From Bacteriovorax stolpii (GTDB lineage Bacteria > Bdellovibrionota > Bacteriovoracia > Bacteriovoracales > Bacteriovoracaceae), in NCBI GenBank assembly GCA_945860895.1, contig CAMASK010000017.1, forward strand, positions 1 to 44,933: DNA of 44,933 nucleotides. The letters are read 5' to 3'. Of this stretch, positions 24,747-28,217 are shown piece by piece; the first letter of the stretch is position 1, and the number at the start of each line of letters is the position of its first letter. The notes under the pieces are model-generated. The model saw only the letters and a list, made by a program, of their open reading frames with translations, was not told the DNA's origin and searched no databases. A program made the position numbers and the translations under genes.

Positions 24747-25298
24747 ATGAAAGTCAAAACCACCAGATTTGGGGAACTTGAAGTTAACCCTACTGACCTC
24801 ATCACATTCGCTGAGGGATTATTTGGTTTTGAAAACCTCAAGAAATACTTCGTGGTTGATCCGGGAGATAGCACTCTAATTCTTTGGCTACAATCAACTG
24901 AAGATGAGAAAGTTGCATTTCCAATAATTGAACCAAAAATTTTCAAGCCAGACTATATAGCAAAACTTTTACCAGCTGACCTGAATGGCCTTGAGCTTGA
25001 TTCTCTTCAATCTGCTAAGCTTTACAGTGTTTTAACAATTCCTGGAAACGTAACTGAAATGTCTGCAAACTTGAAAGCACCGATAGTTATCAATTCAGCA
25101 AAAAAAATTGGTAAACAAATCGTTCTTCAAGATTCTAAACTCTCTGTTAAGCATGAAATGTATAAAGAGCTTAAAACTTATATTGTAAACTTCTCATCCG
25201 ATGTTTTTCGTTCAACTTCTTATGACACAAGCATCACTCTTGAGACTGGTGTTCTTAAATCAACTAAGACAAATACCAAAATTCTGGAAGCTCAATAG
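24747..25298 (+). CDS. fliW: Flagellar assembly factor FliW
   Basis: FliW binds flagellin and CsrA in exchange, coupling flagellin translation to secretion. The family pattern is clear: TDLITFAEGLFGFENLKKYF, then WLQSTEDEKVAFPIIEP. The 183 residues exceed the usual 140-150. The extra C-terminal 40 or so (ELKTYIVNFSSDVFRSTSYD and beyond) are not part of the core fold and I do not recognise them. GGAGG lies six bases before the ATG. Confidence 0.93.
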   Translation: MKVKTTRFGELEVNPTDLITFAEGLFGFENLKKYFVVDPGDSTLILWLQSTEDEKVAFPIIEPKIFKPDYIAKLLPADLNGLELDSLQSAKLYSVLTIPGNVTEMSANLKAPIVINSAKKIGKQIVLQDSKLSVKHEMYKELKTYIVNFSSDVFRSTSYDTSITLETGVLKSTKTNTKILEAQ

Positions 25299-25318
25299 TA
25301 TCAATTTAAAGCTAAAAT

Positions 25319-25333
25319 AAAAAAGGCTCCGTA
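25319..25333 (+). terminator. Left half of the terminator split by the insertion sequence
   Basis: AAAAAAGGCTCC followed by GTA is the 5' arm and loop start of a hairpin whose other arm, GGAGCC plus seven Ts, lies at 26700-26712. Removing the element and one GTA copy restores a 12-bp stem with a GTAA loop, a strong terminator serving both fliW and the convergent operon. Confidence 0.85.
25331..25333. repeat. Target-site duplication, left copy (GTA)
   Basis: GTA at 25331-25333 and 26696-26698 flank the element. Three-base duplications are normal for IS3-family elements. Confidence 0.8.
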
Positions 25334-25353
25334 TGATCTGTACCCCGTTTTCT
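25334..25353 (+). repeat. Left terminal inverted repeat of the IS
   Basis: The 20 bases TGATCTGTACCCCGTTTTCT match the complement of 26676-26695 at 18 positions. A shortened inverted copy recurs at 25402-25417, over the orfA start. Confidence 0.9.
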
Positions 25354-25390
25354 AGATAAGCAATAAAGACCGCTTTTTCTAGAAAATGGG
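25344..25390 (+). promoter_or_regulatory. Left-end hairpin of the IS
   Basis: Arms 25344-25356 and 25378-25390 pair over 13 bases with one wobble, around a 21-base loop containing a nested AAAG/CTTT stem. It would form only in RNA entering from outside the element. Such structures limit transposase synthesis from flanking promoters in other IS families. Confidence 0.5.
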
Positions 25391-25416
25391 TTAAAATCCT
25401 TAAAACGGAGCAGATC

Positions 25417-25794
25417 ATGAAGGGCCTTTCTATTTCGGACCTCAAAATTCTCGAATCTAGTCCTTACGTTCTCAAAATCACTGAAAAGCACATCATCTTC
25501 ACTGAACCTTTTAAGAATCTAATGCTGGAATCGTCTATCGAAGGGATGACGAGACAAGAAGCATTCAATAAAACTCTTGGGGTTGATTGCTTTGATAAAA
25601 AGTTCGTTGATACATGTCTAGCTAGATGGCGAAGGAAATGGAGGGCCGACGGTGATCTTGTCCCAGGAAAAAAGGGACGTAAAAAAGATTTAAACAAAAT
25701 GACCTTTGAAGAGATGAAAGCGGAAATCGCTTATCAGAAAGAGGTCATCGCTCATCTAAAAAAGCTCAGGGGCCTTGCGGACGACGAGCTTTGA
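25417..25794 (+). CDS. IS3-family transposase subunit OrfA
   Basis: OrfA (125 residues) is the DNA-binding subunit. It has a helix-turn-helix region around 45-75 (SIEGMTRQEAFNKTLGVDCF then FVDTCLARWRRKW), a basic stretch (PGKKGRKKD) and a C-terminal leucine-rich helix for multimerisation. CGGAG lies six bases before the ATG. The slippery A-AAA-AAG at 25758-25764 is in frame (codons AAA AAG), so some ribosomes should shift back one base and make OrfAB. The stop overlaps the orfB TTG as TTGA. Confidence 0.9.
   Translation: MKGLSISDLKILESSPYVLKITEKHIIFTEPFKNLMLESSIEGMTRQEAFNKTLGVDCFDKKFVDTCLARWRRKWRADGDLVPGKKGRKKDLNKMTFEEMKAEIAYQKEVIAHLKKLRGLADDEL
25758..25764 (+). promoter_or_regulatory. Programmed -1 frameshift site (A AAA AAG)
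   Basis: The heptamer is read in the orfA frame as xxA AAA AAG. After a -1 slip the frame stays open through AQGPCGRRA and joins orfB without a stop, producing the OrfAB transposase. This is the usual IS3-family arrangement. Confidence 0.75.
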
Positions 25795-26669
25795 CATTCG
25801 AGCTTATCCGTAAGGTCAAAGAATCCAATCATTCTTTGAAGATCTCTGCTCTCTGCAGAGCCGCTCGTGTTAGCTTGAGCGGTTATTATTACTTCGTAAA
25901 AACAAAGGAAGATCGAAGGCAAAGAGATCGCACCGCTCTGGAATTAATTAGAAAATACTTCCTAAAAAGTAGAGAGAAAGGTGGAGTTCGAACAATAGAC
26001 ATGATGATTCGAAATTCAACAGCAATGGTAGTTAATCATAAGAAGATTCAGAGAATTAAACGAGAATATGGACTAATAACAAAAATCAGAAGAAAAAATC
26101 CATATAAAAACCTTCCAGAGGCAGAAAACGCGCATACTCCAAATTTATTAAAAAGAGACTTTGTAACTCCTCTTCCGAATGAAATCTATTCTACTGATAT
26201 GACTTACTTATTCTACGCTGGAGGACAAAAAGCTTATCTGTCTGCAACTAAGGACCTGGCGACAAATGAAATAGTGTCTTACAAAGTGATGAGAACTCCA
26301 TCAATAGCGCACTTTACCGAAGAATTTAAAGACCTCCTGTCACAACTATCAATTACCACGCGACGATCGCTCATCGTGCACTCGGATCAAGGGTTCCAGT
26401 ATACGCATCCGAACTTCAGATTCTTACTTAAAGAACTTGGCGTGTCTCAGTCCATGTCTCGAAGAGGGAACTGCTATGATAATGCTCCAATCGAAAGCTT
26501 CTTTGGGCACTTCAAAGACCTATTGAACTTACGAAAGTGCAAAACCTTCACTGAGCTGACGAAGGAAGTTAAAGAAGTAATGGATTACTATAATTATGAA
26601 AGACCTCAGATAGCTTTAAACAAAAAGCCCCCGGCTGTTTACCGGGGGCTTATTAGCGGTCTTTTTTAA
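25791..26669 (+). CDS. IS3-family transposase subunit OrfB (DDE integrase core)
   Basis: OrfB carries the rve integrase fold. Its catalytic triad is visible as D136 (YSTDMTYL), D199 (VHSDQGFQYT) and E235 (NAPIESFFGHFK), with 35 residues between the last two. An N-terminal HTH_21-like segment (REKGGVRTIDMMIR) precedes it. The 292-residue frame opens at a TTG overlapping the orfA stop. The active protein is more likely OrfAB made by frameshifting. No stop or frameshift damage is seen. Confidence 0.93.
   Translation: MTFELIRKVKESNHSLKISALCRAARVSLSGYYYFVKTKEDRRQRDRTALELIRKYFLKSREKGGVRTIDMMIRNSTAMVVNHKKIQRIKREYGLITKIRRKNPYKNLPEAENAHTPNLLKRDFVTPLPNEIYSTDMTYLFYAGGQKAYLSATKDLATNEIVSYKVMRTPSIAHFTEEFKDLLSQLSITTRRSLIVHSDQGFQYTHPNFRFLLKELGVSQSMSRRGNCYDNAPIESFFGHFKDLLNLRKCKTFTELTKEVKEVMDYYNYERPQIALNKKPPAVYRGLISGLF
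26625..26651 (-). terminator. Inward-facing terminator at the right end of the IS
   Basis: A 10-bp GC-rich stem (26625-26634 with 26642-26651) with a 7-base loop is followed on the minus strand by CTTTTTG. It lies within the last codons of orfB. It should stop antisense transcription arriving from the operon at 26731-30518, which lost its own terminator to the insertion. Confidence 0.65.
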
Positions 26670-26675
26670 CTGTAC

Positions 26676-26695
26676 AGAAAACGGGGCTCAGATCA
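26676..26695 (-). repeat. Right terminal inverted repeat of the IS
   Basis: Read on the minus strand it is TGATCTGAGCCCCGTTTTCT, differing from the left repeat at two adjacent positions (AG for TA). Confidence 0.9.
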
Positions 26696-26712
26696 GTAAG
26701 GAGCCTTTTTTT
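26696..26712 (+). terminator. Right half of the split terminator, with the second GTA copy
   Basis: GTA (26696-26698) is the second target-duplication copy. A then completes the original GTAA loop, and GGAGCC (26700-26705) plus seven Ts complete the hairpin begun at 25319. Confidence 0.85.
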
Positions 26713-26730: not shown

Positions 26731-27462
26731 TTAGATATTAACCGTAGTTTCAGTAGCCCCGCGAGAAAGATTCATATACATATTAGCTTCTGAATGGCTG
26801 GGTTCGCGACTTAAAACGTTTTGCCACTCTGCTTGAGCTTCAATAATGTTTCCATTTCCATAATATAATAATCCAAGTGCAATTCGAGCTGGCATATATC
26901 CAGGCTGTTCATTCTTAAGACGCTTCAATTCTTCAAAAGCTTTTGAAGTGAAACCTTTCTTAGTATAGTTCTTGGCGATTTTAATTCTGATCTCGAGATT
27001 GTCAGGATCAAGAGTTGCTGATTTATTATATTCAAAAAGAGCTTCTTCATAACGACCATAAGAAGCGTACATTTCTGCGAGCTCGTAATGCTTGAGAGAA
27101 AATTTACGATTTAAATGAGGATCAGAAAGGCCCTGACCTTGGCCGCTCTTAACGTGTGAATTGGCCTTTTCGAAAATAGCCTTAGCCTCTTCGTATTTGC
27201 CAATATCATTGTAAATAACAGAGAGAGAGATCGCTGCATCCGTATGATGTGGATCTAGCTCCAGAACCCGGCTAAAAGCTTTTATGGCCTTGCCTAACTC
27301 GCCCCTAACATGGAAAACGTTAGCAAGATGAAAGAAACCTTCAGTTGAATTTGGATTTTGGTCAATTACTTCATTAAGTAACAGGCTTGCGGTCTTTAGA
27401 TCATTTTTTTGGAAAGCTTCCTTAGCTTTTTTAAGCAAGTCATTCATTTTGACGTATTCCAA
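26731..27462 (-). CDS. Tetratricopeptide-repeat protein
   Basis: The protein is built of consecutive 34-residue TPRs from end to end (for example FFHLANVFHVRGELGKAIKA, FSRVLELDPHH, and AEMYASYGRYEEALFEYNKS, ATLDPDN). It has no signal peptide, so it is probably a cytoplasmic scaffold. I start it at TTG 27462 because a strong GGGGAGG lies five bases upstream. A TTG at 27492 would run back into the bamD-like gene without a ribosome-binding site, and the ATG at 27447 is too far away. It is last in the minus-strand operon. Confidence 0.8.
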   Translation of the reverse strand: MEYVKMNDLLKKAKEAFQKNDLKTASLLLNEVIDQNPNSTEGFFHLANVFHVRGELGKAIKAFSRVLELDPHHTDAAISLSVIYNDIGKYEEAKAIFEKANSHVKSGQGQGLSDPHLNRKFSLKHYELAEMYASYGRYEEALFEYNKSATLDPDNLEIRIKIAKNYTKKGFTSKAFEELKRLKNEQPGYMPARIALGLLYYGNGNIIEAQAEWQNVLSREPSHSEANMYMNLSRGATETTVNI

Positions 27463-27473
27463 GCCAACCTCCC

Positions 27474-28217
27474 CTAAAGTTTTTTGCTGCAAGTATCTTT
27501 AATTGATTTTATTTCGGACTGGGACTGTTTATCAACTAATTGGTAAAACTTTTCTATGTATTCAAGACAAGGATTCCACTCTTTCAACTCATAAGTAGCC
27601 AGAATTGTTCTAAGCATCGCATGCTCACGAGTTTTCTTATCCTGATGATTCTCTAAAATATCCAAATACCAATAGCGTGCCGGGGCATACTTATCTGTTT
27701 TAAAATAAAAATCGGCTATATAAAGATCTTTTTGACGAAGCATTTGCTTAGCTTTCTTAATTTTCTTTAAAGCCTGGCCTTTGTAATTATTGTCACCGTA
27801 TTTTTGAACCACTTCTTCATAATACTTAATTGCTTCGAGTGCTGGTTCTAGATCACGGTCAATAGTGTCAGGGATTTGTTTGTAAAATGATTCTGCTATT
27901 CTAAAAATGACATAAGCTATCTTTTCATGTCTTGGATGAAAATCACGGAATAATAAATAGGCTGCAGCCGACTCTACAAAACTTTCCTGCTCAAATAGAA
28001 TATCTGCCTGCATAAGTTCTGCCGGAGTAGCATAAAAAGAATATGGATGCTGGGTTTTAATGGCATTGAGCTTCTCTGTGGCCAGAATAAAACGTTCTGC
28101 AGCTACTAATTCCTCAGCTTCCTTAAATAGAACTTCAGCCTCTGTACGACCTTTCGGCTTATCAGAAGAACAAGCAGCGAATATGGAAACTAGAATAACT
28201 AATCGTATTAAACTCAT
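27474..28217 (-). CDS. bamD: BamD-like outer-membrane assembly lipoprotein
   Basis: BamD is the essential lipoprotein that works with BamA to insert barrels in the outer membrane. The signal ends with the lipobox FAAC at about residue 16. The 247 residues follow BamD along their whole length: AEELVAAERFILATEKLNAI, THPYSFYA-type first repeat, DRDLEPALEAIKYYEEVV, and KDLYIADFYFKTDKYAPARY. Its start overlaps the permease stop by four bases. A general TPR lipoprotein (YfiO-like) is the alternative name for the same family. Confidence 0.85.
   Translation of the reverse strand: MSLIRLVILVSIFAACSSDKPKGRTEAEVLFKEAEELVAAERFILATEKLNAIKTQHPYSFYATPAELMQADILFEQESFVESAAAYLLFRDFHPRHEKIAYVIFRIAESFYKQIPDTIDRDLEPALEAIKYYEEVVQKYGDNNYKGQALKKIKKAKQMLRQKDLYIADFYFKTDKYAPARYWYLDILENHQDKKTREHAMLRTILATYELKEWNPCLEYIEKFYQLVDKQSQSEIKSIKDTCSKKL

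Follow-up and report, generated by a model that had tools for sequence, protein, structure and literature searches.

An IS150-subgroup insertion sequence in the loop of an intrinsic terminator in Bacteriovorax stolpii, with terminator-like hairpins at both ends

The window analyzed here, a stretch of 44,933 nucleotides from Bacteriovorax stolpii (GCA_945860895.1, contig CAMASK010000017.1), carries an IS3-family element in the loop of an intrinsic terminator. From this copy, its relatives and its empty site, we judge it likely that this IS150-subgroup element inserts in the loops of intrinsic terminators and brings its own terminator-like hairpins at its ends. The choice of target is well supported by a survey of related elements, while the recognition of the target and the function of the end hairpins are matters of interpretation, set out below. 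Insertion sequences are commonly portrayed as choosing their targets either loosely or by one fixed sequence.

The split terminator and its uninterrupted counterparts

The element spans 1,362 bp between the termini TGATCTGTACCCC (left) and GGGGCTCAGATCA (right), and sequence and end-repeat comparison place it between two copies of a 3-bp target duplication, GTA (Table 1). When one GTA is removed and the flanks are joined, 12 pairs form around a GTAA loop (AAAAAAGGCTCC-GTAA-GGAGCCTTTTTT; stem score 29, left offset 3, right offset 1), in a site that lies between the convergent fliW and TPR-like genes. An earlier note on this DNA had described the same arrangement, with the element in the loop of a rho-independent terminator, the 12-bp stem restored by its removal and fliW facing a convergent operon, and the sequence and ORFs bear it out. 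Its statement that the insertion split the terminator into halves holds for the DNA, with the nuance that each end of the element contributes a terminator-like hairpin; both neighboring genes may still be terminated despite the split.

Table 1. Features of the element and its flanks (window positions)
Feature	Position	Strand	Basis or remark
fliW	24747-25298	+	ORF, name from the earlier note; upstream gene whose terminator is the target
Left arm of split host terminator, A6-GGCTCC (AAAAAAGGCTCC)	25319-25330	+	Sequence; GGCTCC ends at 25330
Target duplication GTA, left copy	25331-25333		Sequence; in terminator loop
IS3-family insertion sequence, IS150-subgroup clade	25334-26695	+	Repeats, duplication, NF033516 (E=2.6e-74), tree
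IRL (TGATCTGTACCCCGTTTTCT...)	25334-25359	+	Inner limit approximate
Left-end nested hairpin	25334-25417	+	Fold
Outer pairing of nested hairpin, TGATCTG with CAGATCA	25334-25340 with 25411-25417
Inner pairing of nested hairpin, CCCGTTTTCTAGA with TCTAGAAAATGGG	25344-25356 with 25378-25390
orfA, 125 aa	25417-25794	+	ORF
AAGGGCCTTTCT in orfA codons 2-5	25420-25431	+	Predicted pairing with AAAGGCTC of left host arm
Putative -1 frameshift site, an A6G run read as A-AAA-AAG	25758-25764	+	Sequence, reading frames
orfB, DDE transposase (rve, HTH_21)	25791-26669	+	ORF, domain and family profiles
Right-end internal palindrome, AAGCCCCCGG-CTGTTTA-CCGGGGGCTT	26625-26651		In last orfB codons
IRR	26670-26695	+	IRL-like match at 26673-26695 on - strand; inner limit approximate
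Target duplication GTA, right copy	26696-26698		Sequence
A, then right host terminator arm GGAGCC-T7	26699; 26700-26712	+	GGAGCC 26700-26705, T7 26706-26712
Downstream ORF, convergent with fliW	26731-27492	-	TPR-like by its repeats alone

The OrfB transposase matches NF033516 with 250.7 bits (cut-off 160) and carries rve and HTH_21 domains; D136, D199 and E235, named as the DDE residues from their motifs, are invariant in eight sequences. The ends are of IS3-family form (TG...CA, here TGATCTG...CAGATCA, with GTA duplicated), and IRL and the right end are identical at 20 of 28 positions. orfA, unmatched in both Pfam and NCBIfam at E<=0.001, overlaps orfB in frames suited to a -1 frameshift at the A-AAA-AAG run, which we take to be the usual IS3-family form and to join the two reading frames. 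In an OrfB tree of 84 rows, computed quickly (LG+G4) with long branches flagged and with the IS51 and IS407 groups lacking named references, E. coli IS150 joins the window element in a 69-row clade (SH-aLRT 99) that leaves out IS2 and IS3; IS1397 was absent among the matches listed in the distant search and hence is not on the tree. Judged by these sequence features, the element is a member of the IS150 subgroup.

A fliW homologue was found in 24 of the 26 genomes of the genus, one of the 24 being the window genome itself. Judged by eye from printed folds, the DNA 3' of fliW forms an uninterrupted A-tract/T-tract hairpin in 22 of the 23 same-genus relatives, the exception (G002) having a long hairpin without a T-tract. 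The very GGCTCC/GGAGCC stem that is split in the window is intact in three relatives, namely G015 (AAAAAAGGCTCC-GAAA-GGAGCCTTTTTTTT), G006 (AAAAAAGGCTCC-TTCC-GGAGCCTTTTTT) and G013 (AAAAAGGCTCC-GTTAA-GGAGCCTTTTT, with a left arm one A shorter than the window's), and most of the others have an AGCCCTC-type stem. Given these uninterrupted stems, the arms existed without the element; a stemless empty site, the outcome that the earlier note had named as counting against its reading, did not turn up.

Target choice in the genus and the wider clade

An OrfB search returned 13 full-length copies in six of the 26 genus genomes, with two in the window genome, seven in G016 and one each in G011, G022, G008 and G017. 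They adjoin exact 3-bp duplications, as in AAAGGGCCC|IS|GGGCCCTTTT and AAAAAAGGCCTC|IS|GAGGCCTTTTTT. Both flanks are readable in 11 of them, and ten of these 11 sit in terminator hairpins with a stem score of at least 18; contig ends truncate L011 and L013, and the single readable flank of each resembles a terminator half. Once the copies of G144 and G191, from the same phylum, are added, 18 of 21 reach that score, the copies below it being L012, L270 and L280. A preference for terminators, which the earlier note had inferred from one copy, is thereby supported by many. It had held copies without a hairpin to be refuting. Exceptions do exist, both as these three copies below the threshold and as the 54 of 116 clade sites that miss the strict one in the wider survey, but they do not overturn the pattern as a whole. 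The half-terminators on the two sides of L012 (G008:C26) do not correspond to one another, and a duplication is absent; this copy may be a recombinant of two copies. The arms of the genus copies vary in detail and have a GGCC-type core in common (GGGCCC, GGCCTC, GGCCCC, GGCTCC, GGGTCC), and a sequence element may therefore have a part in target choice there.

In G144, the seven copies of one element, all beside exact 3-4 bp duplications, each have an arm pair of their own (AGCCCTC, AAGGGTACC, GGCGGTT, GGCCGGTT, GGGCAGA, GGGCTC and one that is poorly paired). Since one element has seven arm pairs, the arms belong to the target and not to the element. The contrary reading, in which the GGCTCC arms are extended terminal repeats of the element, could draw on a fragment on contig C23 of the window genome that is 99% identical to the window copy over 111 bp, the match starting at A6-GGCTC. 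We regard its probability as negligible, and it was rejected on the variety of arms in G144 and on the empty sites of the relatives, which have the arms without the element.

The window genome also holds two short remnants, L003 (G000:C23:8529-8639) and L004 (G000:C29:26291-26378), with the left end only. They retain approximately the first 75-95 bp of an element, fused to the right terminator arm at AAGGGCCTTT, in the segment of orfA codons 2-5, or at the nearby GGAGC. Each folds into a long hairpin with a T-run at its end (-53.4 and -49.4 kcal/mol, respectively); deletions through short repeats would have rebuilt a terminator in each. A further variant, L348 (G000:C8:375-397), is represented by a left end at a contig end, behind the half-terminator AAAAAAAGCCCTC; immediately inward of its left repeat lies a terminator-like hairpin of the element itself (GCCCTATC..GATAGGGC, followed by a T-run). 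All five left ends of the window type found in this genome (window, C1, C8, C23 and C29) thus lie within terminator-like DNA, and two IS3-family matches of other kinds, on C81 and C115, have no callable ends.

For the wider survey we read 230 loci in overlapping sets: the 13 genus loci, the best 80 of 577 loci from more distant relatives, 77 IS3-family loci from seven other genomes (partial matches and the matches of G102 and G016 left out) and 60 chosen from the IS3-family matches listed for the window's phylum. Loci with cut flanks or uncallable ends were dropped, leaving 129 distinct sites with both flanks. In two of the locus sets, sites were kept only if they had a duplication of at least 3 bp and at least 17 of 26 matching repeat positions, apart from named sites that were set by hand or added; for L180-L185, L191, L210-L218 and L280, the ends were placed manually after comparing copies with one another or by a repeat motif. 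L058, L097 and L099 have an OrfB too short for the tree and were counted in the clade by source search. A first criterion, at least eight RNAfold pairs across the junction with a loop of at most 14, was satisfied by 102 of the 129 sites but also by 37% of random and 55% of mispaired ones, and it was replaced by an ungapped stem score, with strong sites scoring at least 18.

By this score, a strong stem spans the junction at 62 of 116 sites of the IS150-subgroup clade and at 0 of 13 sites of other IS3-family elements (Fisher p=1.4e-4), a control group that is small and partly doubtful, with ends made uncertain by odd element length in L227, L274, L319 and perhaps L302, and with four members (L285, L287, L292 and L316) included without a duplication. 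At a threshold of 14, the counts are 68 of 116 and 1 of 13. With that qualification, the trait is limited to the clade. The figure of 62 is likely an underestimate, since stems with bulges escape the ungapped score and some of the ends were probably miscalled (e.g., L201).

Could such a pattern arise from more or less random insertion, with survival restricted to copies that do no harm, as at gene ends? The sites do lie mostly where insertion is cheap: among neighboring mechanical ORFs of at least 80 aa, 44 of the 116 are convergent, 35 co-directional and only 3 divergent, with 19 sites inside a predicted ORF and 15 unassignable. Yet random non-ORF positions near the sites score at least 18 in only 84 of 4,205 cases (2.0%), and random positions in the fetched loci at large in 1.05% of 10,320; the other IS3-family clades do not show the pattern, within the limits of their ends noted above; and selection for harmlessness fails to explain hits in a loop of a few bases. 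We therefore consider an absence of targeting very improbable.

The strong sites have a characteristic layout, 48 of 62 combining an A-rich left foot with a T-rich right foot, and across sites the A content is highest from -14 to -23 and the T content from +15 to +23. These peaks would also be expected if the transposase read a pattern of sequence or composition (an A-tract, GC blocks and a T-tract at fixed spacing, perhaps with a GGCC core) and pairing were a by-product. Consistent with such reading are the core common to the genus arms and the 48 clade sites that score below 14, of which 16 keep both an A-run and a T-run of at least 4, compared with 81 of 4,640 random positions. Pairing, however, goes beyond composition: correctly paired flanks score at least 18 at 62 of all 129 sites, whereas mispaired flanks of equal composition do so in 4.4%, and the mean fold energy over 63 sites is -15.8 kcal/mol when correctly paired and -7.6 when mispaired. 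In G144 and in Bacillota, moreover, the arms vary freely. We hold this explanation to be improbable as a whole, though it accounts for part of the sites.

Terminators are also places where RNA polymerase pauses, and the transpososome might instead be attracted by a polymerase that is pausing or terminating, or by the hairpin in the RNA. Most strong sites, 51 of 62, do have the T-tract side, as such dependence on transcription would have it. Against it stand the symmetry of the 48 sites with both an A foot and a T foot, and a clade element of Bacillus sp. SG-1 that is found in a different setting; we think it rather unlikely. In that strain, six of seven copies (L180-L185, L191) lie in a common REP-like palindromic context (..GTGCCTG|IS|CTG.CAC). 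Two related elements from candidate phyla, L092 and L097, lie directly after an apparent tRNA 3' end and have no strong spanning hairpin.

Hairpins at the element ends and a proposed route of insertion

Both ends of the window element contain hairpins. The left end folds on its own (25334-25420) with -31.9 kcal/mol, and a transcript arriving from fliW (25310-25440), which includes the left host arm, with -48.3 kcal/mol. In the latter fold, AAAGGCTC of the host arm and GGGCCTTT, within orfA codons 2-5, are base-paired outside the nested hairpin, such that the orfA sequence can, in this predicted structure, replace the lost right terminator arm. The nested hairpin covers a presumed Shine-Dalgarno sequence (GGAGC, 25407-25411) and extends to the orfA start; the nine bases after its stem include three T, with no T-run directly there. 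AGGGCCTTT recurs at the orfA start of a five-copy element of G016 in a different frame (ATG AAG GGC CTT TCT in the window, ATG AGG GCC TTT TCT in G016), which hints at selection on the nucleotides. At the right end, the palindrome is followed by a T-run on the - strand and so forms a terminator-like hairpin facing leftward transcripts, which could stop those from the convergent operon.

These hairpins recur across the clade. A left hairpin scoring at least 22 is present in 63 of 68 clade representatives (48 with a T-rich tail) and in 1 of 13 non-clade elements, and a right hairpin scoring at least 18 in 59 of 68 and in 2 of 13, respectively (1 of 13 in another count). The T-tract of the right hairpin lies on the antisense (-) strand in 53 of the 59. 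Mean scores at the right end and in mid-element are 23.6 and 12.3 within the clade, versus 13.4 and 13.3 outside. Among 47 distinct right palindromes, several pair positions change on both sides (e.g., G-C 22 / T-A 20; C-G 20 / T-A 16 / G-C 6; G-C 30 / C-G 7 / A-T 5); these palindromes were preselected for pairing and lie in codons, which inflates the percentages, and it is the variety of pair types that is informative.

Taken together, the sites suggest a target laid out as A-tract, GC arm, a loop in which 3 bp are duplicated, GC arm and T-tract. Under the reading we prefer, targeting of terminator loops, the transposase would pick this hairpin or palindrome architecture flanked by A/T tracts more than the sequence of the arms, recognizing the palindrome as a cruciform or otherwise. 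Speaking against this reading are the 54 clade sites under the strict threshold, with both runs kept by only 16 of the 48 that score below 14, the 19 sites inside a predicted ORF, the GGCC-type core of the genus arms, the missing T-run behind the window's left hairpin and the E. coli IS150 sites discussed below. IS3-family elements transpose by copy-out/paste-in, and the selection would occur at the insertion step. Each element end brings an inward-facing terminator-like hairpin, the left one of the window copy partly using the host's own left arm, and both host transcripts would still stop, with neither running through the transposase gene. The anatomy of the end hairpins thus points to transcription termination, which would make the insertion nearly neutral and suggests how an element could live in a terminator without harming either neighbor.

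IS150 and other systems that insert at hairpins

The nearest named members are E. coli IS150, which lies inside the clade on our tree, and ISSau2, which its authors place in the IS150 subgroup and which is not on our tree. For E. coli IS150, we took 14 loci (L325-L338), picked for scattered positions among the 60 rows listed out of 3,429 matching records. Type I toxin-antitoxin genes of the hok family adjoin ten of the 14, several of these being at one hokA site, and the order annotated in MG1655 is hokA, IS150, sokA. Flanks at 12 distinct sites (mean 14.8) did not pair better than mispaired (17.8) or random (13.9) ones; the stems there are short, the loops long and the sites alike. Because this pairing test was negative, IS150 is not counted as a confirmed case.

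According to the literature, IS150 makes 3-bp duplications, as the window element does, and its target site has been called highly specific (PMC2891674); a hotspot lies between trg and mokB (PMC5289635), and insertions are described at hokC, hokE, mokB and ldr loci (PMC5419217). Unlike the terminator-loop pattern described here, published IS150 insertions are also found in genes. The word "terminator" does not occur in the IS150 and ISSau2 papers PMC5289635, PMC5419217, PMC11708052 and PMC5771124. We suggest, as a lead, that the terminators of antisense RNAs are the target of IS150 at hok/sok. More broadly, we lean slightly toward a picture in which a large IS3 clade, the IS150 subgroup as sampled here from Bacillota, candidate phyla and the phylum of the window, consists of terminator parasites that enter terminator loops of many different sequences and have matched, inward-facing replacement terminators; the IS150 hotspots at hok/sok and ldr would then reflect target choice (the antisense RNA terminator) and not selection for toxin loss, a simple alternative reading of the hotspots in evolution experiments.

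A clade that reads a class of structures, intrinsic terminators, would offer a testable system for target recognition by DDE transposases and possibly a safe-harbor insertion tool, and it would be a means by which 3' ends, and read-through between convergent genes, come to vary. Group IIC introns likewise insert next to rho-independent terminators; they differ in mechanism, being retroelements that use RNA-based homing and not a DDE transposase. Among DNA elements, IS1272/TnSha1 belongs to the IS1182 family. It inserts at hairpins without preference for arm sequence, and several of its targets were confirmed as terminators by RNA-seq, according to PMC4923244 and PMC5678879. With its different transposase, it deletes part of the hairpin and makes no target duplication, whereas the window element duplicates 3 bp of the loop, loses no target sequence and keeps both arms, and so is not of this type.

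Closer in family are IS1397 and ISKpn1, IS3-family elements that, like the window element, insert in palindromes and whose transposase is said to fix the choice of target (PMC1525189, citing Wilde et al. 2003). Their targets are the repeated REP/PU sequences of one host, in the Enterobacteriaceae. Here, a repeated, conserved palindromic unit is not what the sites have in common: the arms differ among sites of one element, the GGCC-type core is common only in the window's genus, and it is the terminator layout that is shared. Searches of the open-access literature, which takes in neither ISfinder nor most subscription papers, turned up neither terminator targeting by IS150-type elements nor paired end terminators. 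Targeting of loops and hairpins as such is already known from IS1397/ISKpn1 and IS1272.
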